A stretch of 34,567 bases of DNA, taken from the NCBI GenBank assembly GCA_947623665.1, contig CANQHJ010000008.1, positions 1 through 34,567 of the forward strand, given 5' to 3'. The position numbers and the translations under genes were made by a program. The notes beneath the pieces are model-generated. The model was not told where the DNA came from. It saw only the letters and a list, made by a program, of their open reading frames with translations, and ran no database searches. How positions within the stretch are numbered: the first letter of the stretch is position 1; every line of letters starts with the position of its first letter. Positions 13,331 to 26,054 of the stretch are shown piece by piece. The DNA comes from an uncultured Bacilli bacterium. Its GTDB lineage: Bacteria > Bacillota_I > Bacilli_A > RF39 > UBA660.

Positions 13331-13340
13331 CCTATTGTCT
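13320..13340 (-). terminator. Terminator of the restriction-modification cassette
   Basis: AGACAA, a TAGG loop and TTGTCT, followed by TTTTCTTTT on the minus strand, form a short terminator. Its 3' arm and T-run belong to the 72-bp repeat, while the 5' arm overlaps the DpnII-like stop codon. Confidence 0.55.
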
Positions 13341-14195
13341 AATTACTTTTTCTAAAACTCCATTTTCAAGATCACTAATATTATACATAGTATCTAATTC
13401 ATTAAATGTTTCTTCCAAATTCTTTCTAGCATTTTTCCAACCTATACCATCAGTAAACCATATAAAAGTTACACCATCAACATTTTTAGCCTCTTGTGCT
13501 AACATTTTATAGCTTCTAGCAGTCTCGTTTAATTTAGAACCACCACTAGAATAAAAATTAGTTTCTATTACATAAACCTGTTTATCTGTTTTTATTACAA
13601 AATCAAACCTTTTAGTAGATGTATTATTTCCTGACATAGCACTCAAATCAAGATTCCACTTTTTTTCTATATCTTTTAAATACATCTCTTTAAAATAATT
13701 AATATCTTTTTTATAACCTGCTTTAATTATATATGACTCAACCAAATTTTCCATAAGATGTCCACCACGATTTTTTCTACCATTTGAATCAAGACCTACT
13801 TCAATCCCCAAAACATAATCATATAGATTATTTATAATATGATTTTGTAACAGATCAAATAATCCACTTTCTTTCATAAATCTAATATAATCATTCATAG
13901 AATATACTATTTTATCAAATTTAAATAAATATTCATTTATTTCATCTTTTATAAATATTTCTCTCGAGCGCACCGCAAGCAATAATGGTATGCATTCTAA
14001 TGTTTCAGGATATTTTATAACAATATTTTTAAACTCTTCTTCTATATTATTACTTCCAACTAAAGAATTCAAAATATTAAGTTCAACTTTTACTTTATCA
14101 ATATTTTTATATATTTTTTCAAAATCAACATAATATGTATAATCTGATATACTAGTTTTAAATTTACTAAGCCATTTATTAAAATCTCTATTCAC
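13332..14195 (-). CDS. dpnII: DpnII-family type II restriction endonuclease (GATC)
   Basis: The 287-residue protein matches DpnII/MboI-type enzymes over its whole length, with shared blocks NILNSLVGSNNI, the ESGLFDLLQNH core (109-119), GLDSNGRKNRGG (134-145), KRFDFVI (195-201), ETNFYSSGGSKLNETARSYKML (from 211) and WFTDGIGW. D198 and E211 form the PD-(D/E)xK-type acid pair, with N213 in place of the usual lysine as in the family. These enzymes cut unmethylated GATC in foreign DNA. The start is GTG 14195, directly after the stop of the 180-aa gene, with GGAGGTAG seven bases upstream. It is the last gene of the cassette, so both methyltransferases are made first. The specificity is inferred from the family and from the two DpnM/DpnA-type methyltransferases beside it. 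Confidence 0.92.
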   Translation of the reverse strand: MNRDFNKWLSKFKTSISDYTYYVDFEKIYKNIDKVKVELNILNSLVGSNNIEEEFKNIVIKYPETLECIPLLLAVRSREIFIKDEINEYLFKFDKIVYSMNDYIRFMKESGLFDLLQNHIINNLYDYVLGIEVGLDSNGRKNRGGHLMENLVESYIIKAGYKKDINYFKEMYLKDIEKKWNLDLSAMSGNNTSTKRFDFVIKTDKQVYVIETNFYSSGGSKLNETARSYKMLAQEAKNVDGVTFIWFTDGIGWKNARKNLEETFNELDTMYNISDLENGVLEKVIRQ

Positions 14196-14738
14196 TTAAA
14201 ATCTACCTCCAAAGCCTGATGCCGACATTATTGCAAAAATATCCAATTCATCTTCCAAAAGAGAATCTAATACTTTTCCAAACATATATGCATCCTTTCT
14301 ATTGGTTTTTTCTTGAGTCATCAACAATACCATCAATACAGTTAAAAATTCAACATCGTATTCTCCATAATTACTAATTTTCCTATATTTTGATACATCA
14401 GTTATCTCAACATAATTATCAACTAATGTCACTAACGTCATGTAATCATTACTATTTAATGGCTTACAATCCTGCCATTCCTTTCGTATTTCCTTAATAA
14501 AACTTCTCGTTAACTCTCTTTCGGCTTGCAATTTTAACAATAAATCTACAGCCCAATGAATATGTTTAGGAGTTCTAAGCCTTCGTCCTTTTTCAGAATA
14601 TTTAATTATTATATCATTTTCACTCAAACCACCTTGGAAAACATATATTACATATTTATTATCAAAAATAATATCTATTATTGATGTTAATTCATTTCCT
14701 CTTATTTTATTATTTTTTGTACCCTTAATTACTTTCAT
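14196..14738 (-). CDS. Uncharacterised DpnII-cassette protein
   Basis: I do not recognise a named family for this 180-residue protein. It has no signal peptide or membrane segment. The first ~60 residues look like mixed alpha/beta (NKYVIYVFQGGLSENDIIIKYSE), the middle is basic (GRRLRTPKHIHWAVDLLLKLQAERE) and the rest is helical, ending with a small FGGRF tail. It overlaps the DpnA-like gene by 14 bp and abuts the DpnII-like gene, so it is translated between methyltransferase and endonuclease. The classical DpnII operon has only the three R-M genes. Possible roles are a regulator, an assembly partner or an inhibitor of the endonuclease; nothing in the sequence decides. The start is ATG 14738, with AAAGGAG upstream. 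Confidence 0.85.
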   Translation of the reverse strand: MKVIKGTKNNKIRGNELTSIIDIIFDNKYVIYVFQGGLSENDIIIKYSEKGRRLRTPKHIHWAVDLLLKLQAERELTRSFIKEIRKEWQDCKPLNSNDYMTLVTLVDNYVEITDVSKYRKISNYGEYDVEFLTVLMVLLMTQEKTNRKDAYMFGKVLDSLLEDELDIFAIMSASGFGGRF

Positions 14739-15492
14739 AAATTCTCCTTTTAGTTAAATCCAAAAATTCTTTTTCTTTTTCAATCCCAATATACTTTCTT
14801 TTTAATTTTTTCGCAACAACTCCTGTTGTTCCACTACCATTAAATGGATCTAATATCAAATCTCCTTCATCAGTAGACGAAAGAATAACTTTTTCAAGTA
14901 TAGCTATTGGCTTTTGTGTTGGATGCTTACCACATTTTTTCTCACTAGGTTTAGTAAGTGAAGTTTCCCAAACATCCTTAGCTTGCTTACCACCATTCAT
15001 CTCTTTCATTAAAGAGTAATTAAATTTATGTTTAGCTTTCTTACTATTTTTCTTAGCCCAAAGAATAGTCTCTGTAGAATGAACAAAATATCTACAGCTC
15101 ATATTAGGAGGTGGATTTAACTTTTTCCAAGTTATATTATTAATTATCTTAAACCCTTCTTGTTCAAGTGCCATACCTATTGAATAAATATTATGCATAG
15201 TGCCACTAATCCATATAGTACCATCATCTTTTAAAACTTTATGACAAAGTCTAATCCATTCTCTATTAAATTTATGTTTTTCTTCTATACTAATAGACTT
15301 ATCCCAATCTCCTTTATTAACAGATACAATTTTTCCACCACTACAAGTTATTCCTCCACTAGACAAAAAGTAAGGAGGATCTGCAAAAATCATATCAACA
15401 CTTTTAGATTCAATATTTTTCAACACTTCAAAAGAGTCACCTTGTATAAGTTTAAAATCTTTATCTTCATAATAACATTCTAAATTTTTCAT
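14725..15492 (-). CDS. dpnA: DpnA-type N6-adenine methyltransferase (GATC, second enzyme)
   Basis: This is a beta-class amino-methyltransferase: DPPY catalytic motif first (38-41) and the S-adenosylmethionine-binding DPFNGSG motif late (215-221). Blocks such as FADPPYFLSSGG, NKGDWDKS, GTMHNIYSIGMALEQEGF and HSTETILWAKKN match DpnA (M2.DpnII), which methylates adenine in GATC and also acts on single-stranded DNA, protecting incoming transforming DNA. The size is 255 residues, close to the 268 of DpnA. The start is ATG 15492, seven bases after GGGAGG; the GTG at 15510 is part of that ribosome-binding site. It lies 51 bp after the DpnM-type gene. Confidence 0.93.
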   Translation of the reverse strand: MKNLECYYEDKDFKLIQGDSFEVLKNIESKSVDMIFADPPYFLSSGGITCSGGKIVSVNKGDWDKSISIEEKHKFNREWIRLCHKVLKDDGTIWISGTMHNIYSIGMALEQEGFKIINNITWKKLNPPPNMSCRYFVHSTETILWAKKNSKKAKHKFNYSLMKEMNGGKQAKDVWETSLTKPSEKKCGKHPTQKPIAILEKVILSSTDEGDLILDPFNGSGTTGVVAKKLKRKYIGIEKEKEFLDLTKRRIYESN

Positions 15493-15543
15493 AATAAATC
15501 CTCCCTCCACTTATATTATAATAGTTTTTTTTTAAATTTTTTT

Positions 15544-16380
15544 CTATTTTTCAAAATTTGTAATAATAACTTCTTCTACTTTACCCCTTTTACTTCCATT
15601 TGCATTAATATTTCTTTTTGCTTTAATAACATGTATATTAAAATCTTTATACAACTCATTCACAAGTTTCGTATTATGATTAGAAAGCATCACAAAACAA
15701 CCTTTATTAGACAAATTTCTAAACACTTTGGAAAGCCTAATTTGCTCTTCTTTACCAAATCCATTTTCAGTATAACTATTAAATGTAGTAGTATCAGAAT
15801 CGTATGGAGGATCAAAATAAACAAAATCATTCTTTTTAGCATCTTTTACTGCCTCTTCAAAATCTACTGAAAGTATTTTTATATTATTATAATTAAGATA
15901 TCCACAAATAACACCTAAGTTCTGTCCTTCATAAGTATTTACTTTTTCTTTTTTTCCAAATGGTACATTAAATTCATTTTTACTATTAACTCTATAAAGT
16001 CCATTAAAACATGCTTTATTTAAATAAATTGTACGTGCTGCCCTTTTATAATCAGAAAGCCTATTAAATCTATTTTTATCTCTGTCTAGATCTCTAATTT
16101 TATAATAATATTCTTCACAGTGTTCTCTTTCATGCTTATTTAATTCATGACACATCAAATCAAACTTTTTATCATCTTTAATGCACATATAAACATTCAT
16201 AAGTTCTTTATTAGAATCATTTATAACCGCATTTTTAGGAGATAATTCAAATAGTAATGCTCCTCCACCTACAAATGGTTCATAATAAGCATTAAATTCA
16301 TCTGGAACATATTGTTTTAATTTATCTATTATTTGTCTTTTTCCACCAGCCCATTTTACAAATGGTTTTCCCTTAATCAT
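15544..16380 (-). CDS. dpnM: Dam/DpnM-type N6-adenine methyltransferase (GATC)
   Basis: An alpha-class Dam-family enzyme of 278 residues: WAGGK (10-14) and PFVGGG (35-40) bind S-adenosylmethionine, a target-recognition region lies in the middle, and DPPY (190-193) is catalytic. LSNHNT and the basic KRNINANGSKRG loop are typical of DpnM and related M.MboI-type enzymes. It protects host GATC sites in double-stranded DNA. The ATG at 16380 follows AGGAAGTGAG; the GTG at 16389 is less likely. Eight bases overlap the end of the 420-aa gene upstream, so translation is coupled. Confidence 0.93.
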   Translation of the reverse strand: MIKGKPFVKWAGGKRQIIDKLKQYVPDEFNAYYEPFVGGGALLFELSPKNAVINDSNKELMNVYMCIKDDKKFDLMCHELNKHEREHCEEYYYKIRDLDRDKNRFNRLSDYKRAARTIYLNKACFNGLYRVNSKNEFNVPFGKKEKVNTYEGQNLGVICGYLNYNNIKILSVDFEEAVKDAKKNDFVYFDPPYDSDTTTFNSYTENGFGKEEQIRLSKVFRNLSNKGCFVMLSNHNTKLVNELYKDFNIHVIKAKRNINANGSKRGKVEEVIITNFEK

Positions 16381-17635
16381 TGTTCTCACTTCCTATTTTA
16401 TCATAACTAATGACACCAAATTGCTCCCTAAATATTTTAATAATTTCTTCTTTAGATATTTTTTTATTTAAAAAATCTTCATAAATGTTTAAAAATGTTG
16501 GGGTATCTATAATTAAAGTATTATTCCTTTTTGCTATCGTTTCTTGTCTAGAATTAATCTTCTTTCGTTCGTTTATAGTCTTTTTTCGTTCCCCTGCAAC
16601 AAAAAACAAACATTTTGTATTTTCTTTTCTATTTTCCTTTTCTAATTTATCTTCATAAATGGTTAAATGAGAGAATGCATCTGTAACATTTTGACCTGAT
16701 ACTTCATTATTCAATCCTTTTGTTTCTACTATAAATGTAGTATTATCACTTATGAATTTATAATCCTCTTCGAAAACATCTTCAAAATCATTATGTTCTT
16801 TTAGAATATCCTCTAAAATATTAACAATTTCTTCATTTAACTCATTACCAGTTTTATATAAAATACTCTTTATTTTATTATTTTTTTCTAATTTTAATCG
16901 ATTTTCTTGTATTTCTTTTTCTAATTTTTTTATTTCATTTTTTGAATGTTCTATTTTATCAATATATAATCCATCATCAAAAAAAATTATGTCGTCTATC
17001 CAAGATGGGGGTATTTCTTGACTTTCACCCTTAAATATAACATTAATAAATGAGTTCAATCTTTCATAAGCATTTTCTTTCATTTTTAAATCAAATAAAT
17101 TAATTGTAGTTATTACTACATTATTATCGATATAAGTATTTACCTTATTACCATTATTAGAAACTAATAATTCTTTTTCTTTATCAATATTGCTAAAATA
17201 AAAATCTGAATCAAATATAAAACCATTAATTGTAGTTTTACATTTGTCGTAAGTGTACTTCAAAATTTCATCAGAAATATATTCATTTAGTAATTTAGTT
17301 ATTTCTATATTTAAATTTTTTAATTCTTTACTATTATAAAACTGTTTTCTATAAGAAGAATAATCATAATATAAAGTATAATTAATTGGCATTGCAATTA
17401 CAGTTTTAGTATTGCTTGACTTAATAGACTGTTTTAAAGGAATCAAATCGTCTTTTATATTTAGTTTTGTAATTTTTGAATTATTACATTTCCAAATATC
17501 AGGCGAATTTAAATTAAGAATATTAATATCATACATATCAAATGATTGATAATCAGAAAAAGTATTAACTATTATATCTTTATTATCCAAATAAATGTTT
17601 TTTAAATTATCATATGAAGAAATTATTTGTATCAT
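16373..17635 (-). CDS. PD-(D/E)xK nuclease-like protein leading the DpnII cassette
   Basis: I do not recognise a named family for this 420-residue protein. Three parts can be seen: an N-terminal alpha/beta region (1-220); a charged coiled coil (about 224-256, KNEIKKLEKEIQENRLKLEK); and a C-terminal region (265-385) with the order of the restriction-endonuclease-like fold. That order is a conserved acidic helix (NEEIVNILEDIL), D291 in a strand, FIVETKG (E304, K306) and Q315 in a following helix, then a strand CLFFVAGE. This is the E..D..ExK..Q layout of Mrr/RecB-like nucleases. It is transcribed first in the cassette and its end overlaps the DpnM-type gene by 8 bp. The promoter and GGGAGGT site are strong. 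Possible roles are a second, different DNA- or RNA-cleaving defence effector or a modification-dependent nuclease. The nuclease assignment is inference. Confidence 0.7.
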   Translation of the reverse strand: MIQIISSYDNLKNIYLDNKDIIVNTFSDYQSFDMYDINILNLNSPDIWKCNNSKITKLNIKDDLIPLKQSIKSSNTKTVIAMPINYTLYYDYSSYRKQFYNSKELKNLNIEITKLLNEYISDEILKYTYDKCKTTINGFIFDSDFYFSNIDKEKELLVSNNGNKVNTYIDNNVVITTINLFDLKMKENAYERLNSFINVIFKGESQEIPPSWIDDIIFFDDGLYIDKIEHSKNEIKKLEKEIQENRLKLEKNNKIKSILYKTGNELNEEIVNILEDILKEHNDFEDVFEEDYKFISDNTTFIVETKGLNNEVSGQNVTDAFSHLTIYEDKLEKENRKENTKCLFFVAGERKKTINERKKINSRQETIAKRNNTLIIDTPTFLNIYEDFLNKKISKEEIIKIFREQFGVISYDKIGSENND

Positions 17636-20078: not shown

Positions 20079-21077
20079 TTAATCTTTATAATACATCTGA
20101 TTACTACTATTAGGTTTATCTGGAATAGTTAATTTAACTAAACCTTGTTCTATAGCAGGATGTAAATACTTATTTCTTAAAGTATCTTTTGACTTAATAT
20201 TTAACTTATCCATTATTTCATTAGCACTAAGTGGAATATTCTTTTCTAAACAATCTAACAATTTATTTATATTAATTGTCTCTTGATTTATTGGCTCAAT
20301 AGGAACTTTCAAAACCTCTTCAATTGTCTCATCTATCATTTTAAGCATAAACTCTATAAATTCAGTAGAATCCCCTTTACTATTACAATTAGCAATAGCC
20401 CTATAATAATCATCTTGATATTTATGAATTTGAGATTCTATCGGTAAATATAAGAAAATATCTTTCCAATTATAAAGTAAAATATTTTGCCATAACCTTA
20501 CTGTTCTACCATTACCATCAGAAAAAGGATGAATAAAAACAAATTCATAATGAAACACAGTTGATAATATTAAAGGATGTATTTTATCTTTATTTTCTCT
20601 CATCCAACTAAATAATTGCCTCATCAAATCATCCACTAACTTAGGCAAAGGACACATAAAAATACATTTATCGTTATCAAAAACACCCTCGTTACCACTT
20701 CTAAATTTTCCTGCTTCTTCAACAGTTAAAAAAGTCATAACACCATGTACCTTTTTTAAATCTCTAATAGAATATGGATTAACTTCCATTATCATATCAT
20801 AAGCCTTATAAGCATTCTTAACTTCTTGTATATCTTTTTTAGATCCCATTACTAATTTTCCATCAATAACATCTTTAACTTGTTCTAATGTTAAATCATT
20901 ATTTTCTATTGCCAGTGATGAATGAATAGAATTAATTTTAGTTTGTTTCATGAAATGTGGTTTTTTATTAAAATTAGAAAAATTATCTAACTTAGTAACT
21001 TTTTCAGAAATTTCAGCCACTCTCAATAACATTTCTTGTGTTATTTCAAATGGTGGAAAATACTTATCTTTTTTCAT
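20079..21077 (-). CDS. Fic-family AMP-transferase-like protein
   Basis: Fic proteins usually transfer AMP from ATP to a hydroxyl side chain of a target protein. The 332-residue protein has an N-terminal helical region with SSLAIENN (53-60), the S/TxxxE(G/N) self-inhibitory motif, and the core HPFSDGNGR (183-191), a full HPFx(D/E)GNGRxxR-type active site with R194. A C-terminal winged-helix-like segment (about 250-330, LSANEIMDKLNIKSKDTLRNKYLH) may bind DNA. With the inhibitory helix N-terminal to the core it is a class II Fic. The start is ATG 21077 after AAAGGTGAG; the ATG at 21143 is upstream of the -10 and not used. It leads a two-gene operon with an APH-fold kinase. Confidence 0.9.
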   Translation of the reverse strand: MKKDKYFPPFEITQEMLLRVAEISEKVTKLDNFSNFNKKPHFMKQTKINSIHSSLAIENNDLTLEQVKDVIDGKLVMGSKKDIQEVKNAYKAYDMIMEVNPYSIRDLKKVHGVMTFLTVEEAGKFRSGNEGVFDNDKCIFMCPLPKLVDDLMRQLFSWMRENKDKIHPLILSTVFHYEFVFIHPFSDGNGRTVRLWQNILLYNWKDIFLYLPIESQIHKYQDDYYRAIANCNSKGDSTEFIEFMLKMIDETIEEVLKVPIEPINQETININKLLDCLEKNIPLSANEIMDKLNIKSKDTLRNKYLHPAIEQGLVKLTIPDKPNSSNQMYYKD

Positions 21078-21102
21078 AAAACTCACCTTTTTCTCTACAT
21101 AT

Positions 21103-21131
21103 ATTATACTACTAATAGTAATTTTATTCAA
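21103..21131 (-). promoter_or_regulatory. Promoter of the Fic-kinase operon
   Basis: TTGAAT (minus strand, 21131-21126), 17 bp, then TATAAT (21108-21103). The spacer contains the palindrome TACTATTAGTA, a possible operator, perhaps for the winged-helix part of the Fic protein itself (inference). Confidence 0.7.
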
Positions 21132-21166
21132 TACGGCTTGCATAAAACTTACCTAATTTAATAACA

Positions 21167-21191
21167 GAAAAAGCAGAAATAAATCTGCTTT
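21167..21191 (-). terminator. Terminator of the TetR/YugP-like operon
   Basis: AAAGCAGA and TCTGCTTT (8 bp) flank a six-base loop, followed on the minus strand by TTTTTC. It lies directly after the YugP-like stop. Confidence 0.75.
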
Positions 21192-21206
21192 CCTTTTATT
21201 ATAAAT

Positions 21207-22013
21207 TTAATTATTACTATTCTGTTGAACTGCCGCAATTAACTCTAAAACCCTATAAATGAATTCTAGTAATGCTATAACCATATTGTTTACATATTCT
21301 ATATTATATAGTTTAAATAATTCTTTTAGCATTTCCAATTCTTCATCAGTTGCCATATCATTATTCTTTAAAATTTCATATGCTCTATTTTGAGCTTTAA
21401 TTTCAGTCTTTAATACTTTTAAAGACATAACAAACGCTATTAAATAAAGTAATAATCCTAAAACTGTACAAATAATAGTAAATGTTGCTGTTCCACTTCT
21501 TAAAACTAAAAAGTCTAAAATTATACCTATAATAACTAAAGGAATAAATAAAAGTGGTCCAAAATAAATAAATGGTGTTAACCTAATTCTAGTTTTCATA
21601 TCTGGATCTTTTTCTTTATCTAATATTGCAAGAGCTGACTTTTGTGAAGCCATTGCAAGAGATGCAACAGAGTTTTTCTTCCAAGTAAGTCTTCTCAATC
21701 TAACTTTTTTAAAGAAATGACTATAACTATTACCAAAAAGAATTGACCCACTACATTTAACTTTAATTTTTTCAAGTCCATTATCATCAAGTATTTTTCT
21801 TGCTATATTTTCTCCAGTCATATCTATATTATTTTTCTTTTTATTATATTTATGATATTTAATTGCTAAATATATTTGCACACACAATGCAAAAACAGAT
21901 ACGATTAAAATCAATACTGCAACAATCATCATTGAACAAATAACAACATCTGATACATTACTTAAACTAACATCATATGATGCCTCTAATATTTTTCTAA
22001 ATTCCTCTACCAT
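21207..22013 (-). CDS. YugP-family membrane protein lacking the zinc-peptidase motif
   Basis: The 268-residue protein follows the YugP family along its length: an N-terminal membrane helix (about 22-50), the TGENIARKILDDNGLEKIKVK block, VASLAMASQ, two membrane helices (about 149-170 and 176-205), and a final amphipathic TDEELEMLKELFKLYNIEYVNN region with a last hydrophobic helix. In family members the block after KNSVA reads AAHEAGHAIQ. Here it is MASQKSALAIL (121-131), so both zinc His (to Q124 and L128) and the catalytic Glu (to K125) are lost. It cannot be a zinc peptidase of that kind and is probably a structural or regulatory relative. It is third in a unit with a TetR regulator and a 62-residue membrane protein, the start being ATG 22013 after AGAGGTAG. 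Confidence 0.75.
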   Translation of the reverse strand: MVEEFRKILEASYDVSLSNVSDVVICSMMIVAVLILIVSVFALCVQIYLAIKYHKYNKKKNNIDMTGENIARKILDDNGLEKIKVKCSGSILFGNSYSHFFKKVRLRRLTWKKNSVASLAMASQKSALAILDKEKDPDMKTRIRLTPFIYFGPLLFIPLVIIGIILDFLVLRSGTATFTIICTVLGLLLYLIAFVMSLKVLKTEIKAQNRAYEILKNNDMATDEELEMLKELFKLYNIEYVNNMVIALLEFIYRVLELIAAVQQNSNN

Positions 22014-22065: not shown

Positions 22066-22254
22066 TTATTTTTTATTATTTTTATTTCTAATTCTTATAT
22101 ATTCTACAATTGCAAAAGCAACCCAAATAATTCCATCCCATAAAATAGAACTATTTTTTTGATTGCAAGCAAATTCTACAAAAAACCAAATTGCTGCACA
22201 TAATTGCCATAATACTATTTCATATTTCTCACAAAATTCATTAAATTTGTCCAT
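22066..22254 (-). CDS. Small membrane protein
   Basis: This 62-residue protein has two hydrophobic segments (about 12-30 with WQLCAAIWFFVEF, and 38-54 with DGIIWVAFAIVEYI), then a basic RNKNNKK tail. No family is recognised. A strong GGAAGGAG ribosome-binding site lies eight bases upstream of the ATG at 22254. It lies between the TetR gene and the YugP-like gene, with no terminator seen between, and may partner the latter in the membrane. Confidence 0.75.
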   Translation of the reverse strand: MDKFNEFCEKYEIVLWQLCAAIWFFVEFACNQKNSSILWDGIIWVAFAIVEYIRIRNKNNKK

Positions 22255-22306
22255 CACTCTTTACTCCTTCCTTTATATTTTATAGTTAGTATAGGATAAT
22301 TCAGTT

Positions 22307-22873
22307 TTATTTATTTTCTAGACTCTTCATACTATTTATAAGTATATCTATCGATAAATCAAAGCTTTCCTTTATCGATAATGAATCTCCAAAAGCATCA
22401 TTATCTTCTAGTAAAGCAAATCCTTCTAAAAAACTTCTCATTAATCTAATACAATGTTTCACATTTTTTTTACTAATATTTAATGGTTCTACTATTTTAA
22501 ATATAACTTCATGTAATTTTTTTGTAGCTTCAAGACTAACTTCATTATCATACATGTTATACCACAACATTGCACTAAATATACCTTTATTATTAGAAAC
22601 ATAATCATAAAAAGCATAACACATATTTCTTATAGAATCATAACCAACAACGCCTACAGTTGACTCTATCATTTTACTTCCTACACTCATCCATCCATAA
22701 ATCATAATCTTTTCTCTGATATCACTTAAACTAGAAAAATGATTATATAAAGATGGAGATTTTATACCTAACTGTGATGCAATCATTTTCAAAGATAAAT
22801 TATCAAGTCCTACTTTATTTGCAAGCATTGCAGAAACTTCAATAATATCATCATCACTAATGCGTTTTTTCAA
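22307..22873 (-). CDS. TetR-family transcriptional regulator
   Basis: The 188-residue regulator has an N-terminal TetR helix-turn-helix (about 8-53: LSLKMIASQLGIKSPSLYNHFSSLSDIREKIM) and an all-helical ligand domain similar to the TetR C-terminal WHG group. It starts with TTG (22873), seven bases after AGGAGGG; no ATG fits. The promoter spacer is filled by a perfect 19-bp palindrome, so repression of itself and of the two membrane-protein genes behind it is the simplest reading. The effector is unknown. Confidence 0.92.
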   Translation of the reverse strand: MKKRISDDDIIEVSAMLANKVGLDNLSLKMIASQLGIKSPSLYNHFSSLSDIREKIMIYGWMSVGSKMIESTVGVVGYDSIRNMCYAFYDYVSNNKGIFSAMLWYNMYDNEVSLEATKKLHEVIFKIVEPLNISKKNVKHCIRLMRSFLEGFALLEDNDAFGDSLSIKESFDLSIDILINSMKSLENK

Positions 22874-22903: not shown

Positions 22904-22932
22904 ATTATAACTAATCAGATTAGTTATGTCAA
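22904..22932 (-). promoter_or_regulatory. TetR operon promoter with palindromic operator in the spacer
   Basis: TTGACA (minus strand, 22932-22927), 17 bp, TATAAT (22909-22904) is a consensus promoter. TAACTAATCAGATTAGTTA (22908-22926) is a perfect 9-1-9 palindrome filling the spacer. A second half-site (TAACTAAT, 22887-22894) lies just before the ribosome-binding site. Binding would exclude RNA polymerase. Confidence 0.85.
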
Positions 22933-22967: not shown

Positions 22968-23993
22968 TTATCTATTAATTTTTTCAAATTCTTTACTTAA
23001 AACTTTAATAATACCATCTTGTTTTATATTCATTCCTGTAAGTAAACTAGCATCTTTACATCTATAATGTAATCTATTAAATTTACCAAGCTCTTCTATA
23101 TTACAATTAGTTAAATAAACACCCATCATTTTACCATACGCATATAAAATCTCATGAAATGGATTAATTTTAAAACTCGAAACATCATCTTTATGTTCAA
23201 AAGATAAATATGCATTTTTCATTCTATAAGATAGCGTTCTAAGAAAGCTATATTTAAAATACTTAGACATATCAGGTTCAATATTATTATTTAACATAAA
23301 ATCATACATAGAATTTTGAAGCATATGTCCAGATGCTTCAACGAAAGCCGAAGTAGAAATATAAACTGTTTTATCAAATGAATTTAAATACATTGCATCT
23401 TCAATATGCCCTAATTCATGTGCAACACTACAACATTTTTTATAATTATTAAAGTAATTATTATCAAGTAAAATATAATCATTATTACCACAAAAATCAA
23501 AATAGGTAATACCCTTATAATCATCTACTACATTACCATTTAATATTCTTCCTTCCATCAACATTCTATTAAATGTATCTATATCCTTTACATAAATACT
23601 ATGTTTTAAAAAGTCATTTATAAAATCTTTAGAATCTTCTTCTGAAATATCTCTATAAAATTTTTCTTTTACATTACATCTATCTAAATTATAATCTAAA
23701 TATTCTATAATTTTAGGAAATTCTTCTAAAGTAAATTTCTCTAAAGATAAAAAGTTATAAATAATAATATCATGTAAAAAATCATTATATTTTATTGCAC
23801 TATTATAAAAGTTTGGTCTTAGTACTTGAAATAATCTTTCATCAAATATATTTTCACCAGTAATAGATTTATGCAAATCATCAAATCCACATAAACTAAG
23901 ATAAGCCCTCTCAACATCTTCTCCTCTATAAAGTTTTGCTTCATAACTTGCCATTAAATACTCTAATTTTTCTAAGGCTTCTTTACTATACAT
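22968..23993 (-). CDS. Compact M3-like zinc metallopeptidase-like protein, paralogue 3
   Basis: The 341-residue protein carries HELGH (192-196) and a Glu 23 residues later in FVEASGH (E219), the zinc site layout of M3-type gluzincins such as oligoendopeptidase F. A C-terminal YAYGKMMGVYL helix (about 292-302) resembles the helix after the M3 active site. It is about half the usual M3 length, lacking most of the N-terminal part, and has no signal peptide. It is 30-40% alike by eye to the two genes before it in the operon, mainly in the N-terminal KLYRG/SLxxLxxxH region, the zinc motif and the end. The start is ATG 23993, eight bases after AAAGGTG; the TTG at 24026 is not needed. The substrate is unknown. 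Confidence 0.7.
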   Translation of the reverse strand: MYSKEALEKLEYLMASYEAKLYRGEDVERAYLSLCGFDDLHKSITGENIFDERLFQVLRPNFYNSAIKYNDFLHDIIIYNFLSLEKFTLEEFPKIIEYLDYNLDRCNVKEKFYRDISEEDSKDFINDFLKHSIYVKDIDTFNRMLMEGRILNGNVVDDYKGITYFDFCGNNDYILLDNNYFNNYKKCCSVAHELGHIEDAMYLNSFDKTVYISTSAFVEASGHMLQNSMYDFMLNNNIEPDMSKYFKYSFLRTLSYRMKNAYLSFEHKDDVSSFKINPFHEILYAYGKMMGVYLTNCNIEELGKFNRLHYRCKDASLLTGMNIKQDGIIKVLSKEFEKINR

Positions 23994-24006
23994 ACTTAAT
24001 ACACCT

Positions 24007-25023
24007 TTACTTTCTAACTTTTTCAATTTCCTTAGACAATACCTTTATCATTTTATCTTTATTAAAATCTATTTGCTTAAATAATCCTATATTAAAATTA
24101 TCATAATGAAGTCTTCTAAATAATTCATACTCTTCTTTACTACAATTATTTAAATAAAAACCTAACATCATACCACAAGAATAAACAACTTCTTGAACTG
24201 GGTTAATTTCTTCTCCACTAATATTAGAAAAATATCTAATACTATTCATAGAATGATTAAGTAAACAACTAATTGCATTACTCTTTAAAAGTTGTCCTGT
24301 ATCTTTAGAAATACCTTCTTCTATCAAGAAATCATGCATTAAAAATTCCCAACTATGAGAAAAGCTTTCTTTATAAGGAGACAAATCTAAAAATCTAGAT
24401 TTAACTGGTAAATCAATTCCTAACAATTCATCTACATGTCCTGACTCATGAACAATAGAACAACCCTTCTGATAATTATTACTATGTTCTCCAATACATA
24501 CATAATCATTATTTTTAGAATAACTATCAAAAAAAGTAATTCCAGAAAAACCATTTAATCTACCATCCATTATTCTTTTTTCTCTACATAACCTATCAAA
24601 TATATCTTTATTACCTATTTTAGGATTATATCTAAAAAAATCATTAACCAAAACTCTAACATATTTATTTTCTATATCCTTAGTTTGTTTTTCTTCTAAA
24701 TTATCAAAATTTCTAGCAATAAACTCACAAACAGATAAAACATCATTTAAATAAAATTCTCTAAAACTATCTATATTATTATTTAATATTATATTATTTT
24801 CTAAACTTATATTATTAATATGTTCTGCAAAACTCATATGTTTAAAAACAAAATCATCATAATCAAACATATACCCAAAGCCACAAGAATTATGCATCTC
24901 ATCAAGTCCTAAAAGTGAGAACATAAGTCTATCAGAATATTCTCCATTATAAAGTTTTTCCTTATAATTTAATATACTACTTTCTAATTTTTTTAAAAAT
25001 TCTTTTTCATATTCAAAATTCAT
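24007..25023 (-). CDS. Compact M3-like zinc metallopeptidase-like protein, paralogue 2
   Basis: The 338-residue middle member of the tandem set. It has HESGH (192-196) with E219 in YKESFSH at the same spacing as its neighbours, and the same terminal arrangement (NPVQEVVYSCGMMLGFYLNNCS then RRLHYDN). The N-terminal 60 residues share KLYNGEYSDRLMFSLLGLDEMH with paralogue 3. No secretion signal is present. The ATG at 25023 follows AGGTGA, which overlaps the end of the previous gene; the GTG at 25032 lies in that site. It is most like paralogue 3 (shared NP.xE, LxNC and RLHY motifs). Confidence 0.7.
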   Translation of the reverse strand: MNFEYEKEFLKKLESSILNYKEKLYNGEYSDRLMFSLLGLDEMHNSCGFGYMFDYDDFVFKHMSFAEHINNISLENNIILNNNIDSFREFYLNDVLSVCEFIARNFDNLEEKQTKDIENKYVRVLVNDFFRYNPKIGNKDIFDRLCREKRIMDGRLNGFSGITFFDSYSKNNDYVCIGEHSNNYQKGCSIVHESGHVDELLGIDLPVKSRFLDLSPYKESFSHSWEFLMHDFLIEEGISKDTGQLLKSNAISCLLNHSMNSIRYFSNISGEEINPVQEVVYSCGMMLGFYLNNCSKEEYELFRRLHYDNFNIGLFKQIDFNKDKMIKVLSKEIEKVRK

Positions 25024-25028
25024 ATAAA

Positions 25029-26036
25029 TCACCTATCTAACTTTCGTATTTCTTTTTTTAAACTCTTAACAAGTTTTTCTTTATTAATATCCATTTCTTC
25101 AAATAATTTGAAATCGTATACACTACGATGAAGTACATCAAACTTTAAGAAATTCTTCTCATCACTATTACAAAAATACAAAGCAAGCAAAATCCCATAA
25201 CTATAAAGTACAGCTTCTTTCATTTCCTCATATTTTCCTTCATTTAAAAGTTTTAAATAATCATTTGAAAAATCATACAAATCTTTTAACAATTCTATCT
25301 TATTAGAAATAGCCTCTTCTTTAATAATATTTTTTCTTATCAAAAAATCATAAGCTTTATTTTCAAAATAATGTGATTCTACTTCACTAAATAAAGATAA
25401 CATATCATATTCTAATTTCAAATCACCATCCATTTCTAATTCTTCATAAAAATGCCCATCTTCATGAAAAAAATCAAAAGCATTTTCATTATTATCACCA
25501 TTACTATCAATATAAATAAAATCATTACCTCTAATATAATCAGATAAAGTTTCAGAACAGCCAAAATATACTGCATCATGTCCTGTTATAATCTTTAAAT
25601 CTTTAACCATTTTATTCAAATGATTTTTATCAATATGCATCTCTTCTTCACTAAACTCTTTTATAATATCAATCCATTGTTCTCTAGAAAGTTCATCATT
25701 TAAAACAACTTCTCTATTTAGCAAATCAGAATAATCATCTAAAACTTCTAAAATAGCAGGAAAAACTTCTAAAGAAAACTCATCTAAAGATTTAATATTT
25801 TCAATATAATTACCTCTATATTTATCACTTTCTCTCATAACCATTCTATAAATTATAGGACTCTTATTTTTAAGTATAATATCATTAAATAATTCATAAC
25901 CAGTAATATAACTATAAATATCATTTAAATTTGTCAAAGACAAATAAGCCTTATAAGTATCTTGATTCCTATAAAGCTTATTTTCATATAAATATATTAA
26001 AAATTTTATTCTATCAAAAACATTTTTTCTATACAC
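25029..26036 (-). CDS. Compact M3-like zinc metallopeptidase-like protein, paralogue 1
   Basis: The first and most diverged of the three tandem paralogues (335 residues). It keeps HEDGH (191-195) with E218/E220 in FSEVESHYFENKAYDFL. It also keeps the KLYRNQDTYKAYLSLTNLNDIYSYITG N-terminal block and the YSYGILLALYFCN helix. It is more acidic than the others and has lost the NP motif. The likely start is GTG 26036, eight bases after AGGTGG, giving MYRKNVFDRIKF, which aligns with MYSKEALEKLEY of paralogue 3; the GTG at 26048 lies within the ribosome-binding site. hisS ends 18 bp upstream, so it belongs to the same operon. Confidence 0.68.
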   Translation of the reverse strand: MYRKNVFDRIKFLIYLYENKLYRNQDTYKAYLSLTNLNDIYSYITGYELFNDIILKNKSPIIYRMVMRESDKYRGNYIENIKSLDEFSLEVFPAILEVLDDYSDLLNREVVLNDELSREQWIDIIKEFSEEEMHIDKNHLNKMVKDLKIITGHDAVYFGCSETLSDYIRGNDFIYIDSNGDNNENAFDFFHEDGHFYEELEMDGDLKLEYDMLSLFSEVESHYFENKAYDFLIRKNIIKEEAISNKIELLKDLYDFSNDYLKLLNEGKYEEMKEAVLYSYGILLALYFCNSDEKNFLKFDVLHRSVYDFKLFEEMDINKEKLVKSLKKEIRKLDR

Positions 26037-26054
26037 AACCTTACCCACCTATTA

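Follow-up and report, generated by a model that had tools for sequence, protein, structure and literature searches.

The window, i.e. the whole stretch of 34,567 nucleotides that was analysed (contig CANQHJ010000008.1 of an uncultured Bacilli bacterium), carries an open reading frame for a membrane protein which we refer to as pseudo-YugP. In the window's genus, a tetR gene, a gene for a small protein of 63 aa and the pseudo-YugP gene form a co-directional operon closed by a terminator-like hairpin. The features of this locus are the following:

22904-22932, minus strand: sigma-A-type promoter, TTGACA-17-TATAAT, 12 of 12 matches
22907-22927, no strand assigned: probable TetR operator ATAACTAATC-A-GATTAGTTAT, a perfect 10-bp inverted repeat in the promoter spacer
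22307-22873, minus strand: TetR-family regulator (Pfam: TetR_N, TetR_C_33; PF00440), conserved in all three genomes of the genus
22066-22257, minus strand: two-helix membrane protein of 63 aa, also present in G002 (72%) and absent beside the gene in the third genome, G001
21207-22013, minus strand: pseudo-YugP gene, 268 aa (P0001), an ORF with a PF04298 match and 38 genome loci at 55-94% identity
21717-21731, minus strand: NSYSH, codons 95-99, aligned to DHYDP
21630-21644, minus strand: QKSAL, codons 124-128, aligned to HE(C/V)GH
21390-21413, minus strand: LKTEIKAQ, codons 201-208, aligned to LPVEFxAS with E204 retained
21168-21193, minus strand: intrinsic terminator-like hairpin 3' of the pseudo-YugP gene

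Directly 3' of the terminator lies a gene for a Fic protein (20079-21143, minus strand; PADLOC SoFic match, E=1.8e-42), with a promoter-like site at 21131-21103.

The relationship to the YugP family claimed for this ORF in the first-pass annotation is borne out by the Pfam profile PF04298 (Zn_peptidase_2, YugP family), which matches pseudo-YugP with E=2.6e-34 and 119 bits, passing the curated cut-off of 27, and of which positions 3-215 out of 218 are covered by residues 33-256. The likeness to Bacillus subtilis YugP and PF04298 extends over nearly the whole profile length, with the same order of helices, and includes the near-invariant residues Y97, A129, E204, A207 and Y240. As had been predicted, the membrane helices and the C-terminal region are retained; the location of pseudo-YugP in the membrane is well supported, and its strongly basic segment 51-148 (23 K+R vs 9 D+E) is consistent with the cytoplasmic side. 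Compared to YugP, the protein contains an additional N-terminal stretch of ~20 residues, ~11 residues between helices 2 and 3, and a Ser/Asn-rich tail. Its AlphaFold model (mean pLDDT 88, pTM 0.80) yielded no significant match among solved structures in a fold search, and neither the zinc-less clade described below nor an intact YugP relative was matched among solved sequences.

Where pseudo-YugP departs from YugP is in the zinc site. The MAFFT alignments, which at first comprised 30 intact relatives from the window's bacterial family and later 71 intact YugP members (17 of them from other families of the class), place QKSAL in the columns of the HECGH/HEVGH block, so that the zinc-binding and catalytic HExxH motif is missing, as had been proposed for the HEAGH-type block of the family. 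The loss goes slightly further than was stated, in that the DHY(D/N)P motif is gone as well, with NSYSH in its place, and the LPVEFxAS motif is altered, of which the Glu (E204) is nonetheless kept in 100% of both the intact and the zinc-less groups. A true HExxH elsewhere would have undone this interpretation; the 268-aa protein contains no HExxH, HxxxH or HxxEH, and since its only histidines are His54 and His99, no HExxH can be hidden at another position. Relatives of the QKSAL type were to be looked for as well, and 46 relatives share a Q/E-K-x-x-L/I/F state at the HExxH site, from which it follows that QKSAL is neither a sequencing error nor a chance occurrence. The loss of the zinc site is thus well supported. 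Because the zinc ligands are absent, zinc-dependent peptidase activity is not expected, and pseudo-YugP is likely to be devoid of proteolysis.

Pseudo-YugP and all these relatives form a single clade (SH-aLRT 99), whose support is 100 in an alignment stripped of the three motif regions and of the most divergent member; it is characterized by a long stem (2.34 changes per column) and short internal branches. The titles of the 38 loci identified in the genome-contig scan point to gut Bacilli, Erysipelotrichaceae or Clostridia, many of them from rabbits and ruminants. According to profile searches, the zinc-less gene is carried by some 15 of the 386 genomes from the window's family (by one as a fragment), by 12 of 385 from the order and by 14 of 395 from the class, the last including 11 genomes from six other families; the subfamily therefore occurs in at least seven families of the class. 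The dN/dS values between its members are about 0.01-0.23, and the maintenance of pseudo-YugP by purifying selection is well supported.

The changes in the active site characterize the clade: DHYDP is exchanged for NSYSH, HExGH for (Q/E)KxxL, and LPVEFxAS for LKTExKAQ. Thirteen columns (N95, S96, S98, H99, R107, K125, L128, L131, D136, K202, Q208, Y236 and N237) show one fixed or nearly fixed residue in the intact YugPs and a different one in the zinc-less clade, and nine of these 13 lie inside the three active-site motifs. Among the conserved motif columns, 9 of 14 are fixed to another residue, compared to 4 of 20 conserved columns elsewhere (Fisher p=0.014). Neither K125, which has taken the place of the catalytic Glu, nor E204 varies among the 47 members of the clade; S96 and H99 each reach 0.92 across these members, and S98 reaches 1.00. 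Judged from these sequence patterns, the former active-site pocket appears to be rebuilt rather than merely lost, and a putative Lys-Glu pair, K125-E204, may have replaced the zinc.

Within genera the zinc-less gene is distributed patchily, and the extent to which it has diverged between genomes does not accord with the divergence of the intact YugP that they carry. G239 and G006, which belong to different genera, share 93% identity in the zinc-less protein vs 54% in the intact YugP; G310 and G231, from one genus, share 78% vs 93%; and between G105 and G483 dS is 0.21 in the zinc-less gene vs 1.02 in intact YugP. In G483, the zinc-less gene and an AAA/DUF4143 gene sit between two genes that abut each other in G305, which thus represents the empty site. 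In most loci the gene is located between opposite-strand genes or well apart from its neighbours, and in most rabbit-type loci it has its own promoter, TTGACTAA...TATAAT, about 50-58 bases 5' of the start codon. The patchy distribution together with the discordant divergence points to horizontal exchange, and several lines support the proposal that the zinc-less gene spreads horizontally, mostly as a single gene, with the intact YugP alone serving as the reference for this comparison.

The slot that holds the zinc-less gene in G254 is occupied in G009 (L194, 3526-4212) by a uracil-DNA-glycosylase-like gene, and may be a spot of gene exchange. At another locus (L048, 8881-9061), ~180 bp 3' of the zinc-less gene repeat a part of the preceding gene, as if the target had been duplicated by an insertion. 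A partner identified by linkage was considered and rejected, as the loci compared share no constant gene neighbour and contain no toxin partner. Among viral contigs there is no relative of pseudo-YugP, and phage and plasmid records gave weak matches only, none above about 30% identity; where a feature is listed for such a match, the annotation is zinc metallopeptidase.

The zinc site is also degenerate in 11 further PF04298-like sequences from the window's family (L106, L107, L108, L109, L110, L111, L113, L114, L177, L178 and L179), which have HQAGH, NECGH, REAVS, FIAMQ or other variants in place of the intact site and fall outside the zinc-less clade, on long branches. Since they are differently degenerate, the site seems to have been lost more than once among the YugP homologues of these bacteria, the number of losses being blurred by the long branches. 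In L114 (HQAGH) the catalytic Glu is changed and both His residues are kept.

The absence of every catalytic residue, and the much greater divergence of other YugP copies in the window's family, might suggest that pseudo-YugP is a relic under decay. For this clade such a view is refuted by the reading frames, which are intact in the relatives searched, and by the low dN/dS values that reveal strong purifying selection, and its probability is negligible. A dead but conserved member of a peptidase family brings to mind the iRhoms, pseudoproteases of the rhomboid superfamily (PMC3149277, PMC6451368), which are likewise conserved, peptidase-derived membrane proteins that have lost catalysis, albeit from an unrelated family and acting on active partners. 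By analogy, pseudo-YugP could be a dominant-negative or adaptor partner of intact YugP, binding it or shielding its substrates. Intact and zinc-less copies do occur together in 9 of 28 carrier genomes, all nine in the window's family (9 of 17 there), but this co-occurrence appears to be no commoner than the family background. Moreover, the intact YugP that was to be sought elsewhere in the genome was not found: there is no second PF04298 gene in the window's genome (90.85% complete) or in the two other genomes of the genus, and none of the 11 carrier genomes from other families possesses an intact YugP. That the zinc-less gene is so often found without it speaks against YugP being its target in the manner of the iRhoms and disfavours a regulator of the intact enzyme, and we regard this explanation as improbable.

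At the outset a sensor or scaffold function was suggested on the grounds that the protein has its own regulator. Either is conceivable, but a sensor that acts through TetR is even less probable than the partner role. In this reading, pseudo-YugP would perceive a signal and feed it to TetR via the small membrane protein, in agreement with the operon and operator shared in this genus. Control by TetR together with the small protein does stand for the window, where a predicted operator palindrome overlaps the promoter of the tetR gene, as expected for a TetR-repressed operon, and the palindrome is conserved in the sister species (L034) and partly in the third one (L038), which lacks the small protein beside the gene. 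Elsewhere it does not hold: a relative of this TetR is found beside the zinc-less gene in 3 of 39 loci, only within the window's genus, and the small protein in 2 of 39, the gene usually standing alone. The TetR neighbour, being confined to one genus, informs on expression rather than on the basic function of the protein, and the phrase "own regulator" is thus apt for this genus but not as a description of function. TetR proteins, besides, usually sense their ligands directly. Somewhat less remote, yet still improbable, is the conversion of the pocket into a catalytic or transport site of another kind, independent of zinc and composed of K125, E204 and H99 together with the NSYSH serines. The replacement of two motif sites in concert and the near-fixation of these positions in the 47 members would agree with such a site; however, neither the fold nor the sequence matches an enzyme of this kind, and binding alone suffices to explain the conservation.

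We consider it reasonably probable that pseudo-YugP is a dead descendant of YugP, conserved and exchanged, which binds without cutting and perhaps serves as an envelope-protective accessory. According to this scenario, the subfamily would go back to a single ancient event in which the zinc site was lost, after which the pocket would have been rebuilt with N95/S96/S98/H99, K125, L128 and K206/Q208 around the retained E204. Purifying selection would then have held the subfamily while it passed from one gut Bacilli lineage to another, in most cases as a lone gene. The protein would most likely bind, but not cut, a ligand or a partner protein in the rebuilt pocket on the cytoplasmic side of the membrane, and could act as an accessory factor protecting the envelope, of the immunity or exclusion type, the expression of which would be controlled in this genus by a self-repressing TetR operon. 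The immunity- or exclusion-type role taken on its own is unlikely; it is suggested only because the gene is single, mobile, membrane-bound and here TetR-controlled, and pseudo-YugP matched no immunity family, nor did P0001 match any PADLOC defence model at E<=0.01. A broader version, which combines an exchanged subfamily with a new K-E-H-S pocket (for binding or for new catalysis), envelope protection and repeated zinc-site losses in the lineage, is tentative and, as a whole, rather doubtful.

YugP is widespread and little understood; the one paper found that tests it in detail reports a small delay of germination, seen only when htrC is deleted as well (PMC13393411). A precedent for substituted zinc-peptidase sites is provided by the zincins of the CLCA family, a family different from YugP, some of whose members carry substitutions at their catalytic residues (PMC3650047); our literature search turned up no report of such a counterpart for YugP. 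With a subfamily that is dead yet conserved, the binding role of the YugP fold can be told apart from its cutting role, and such a subfamily serves as a warning for annotation that not all PF04298 matches are peptidases. Its apparent movement among gut bacteria as a lone gene suggests that it confers a benefit which is selectable and can be transferred.

Two other groups of genes were observed on the minus strand of the window. A restriction-modification system of the DpnII type (13332-16389) consists of a DpnII nuclease, an N6_N4 methylase, a D12 methylase and an unnamed ORF of 180 aa. The region 22968-26048 contains a tandem array of three paralogous ORFs (339-352 aa), all of which carry an HExGH motif (HELGH, HESGH and HEDGH); two of them match Peptidase_M78 weakly, below the cut-off, and the three are candidates for a new family of zinc peptidases.
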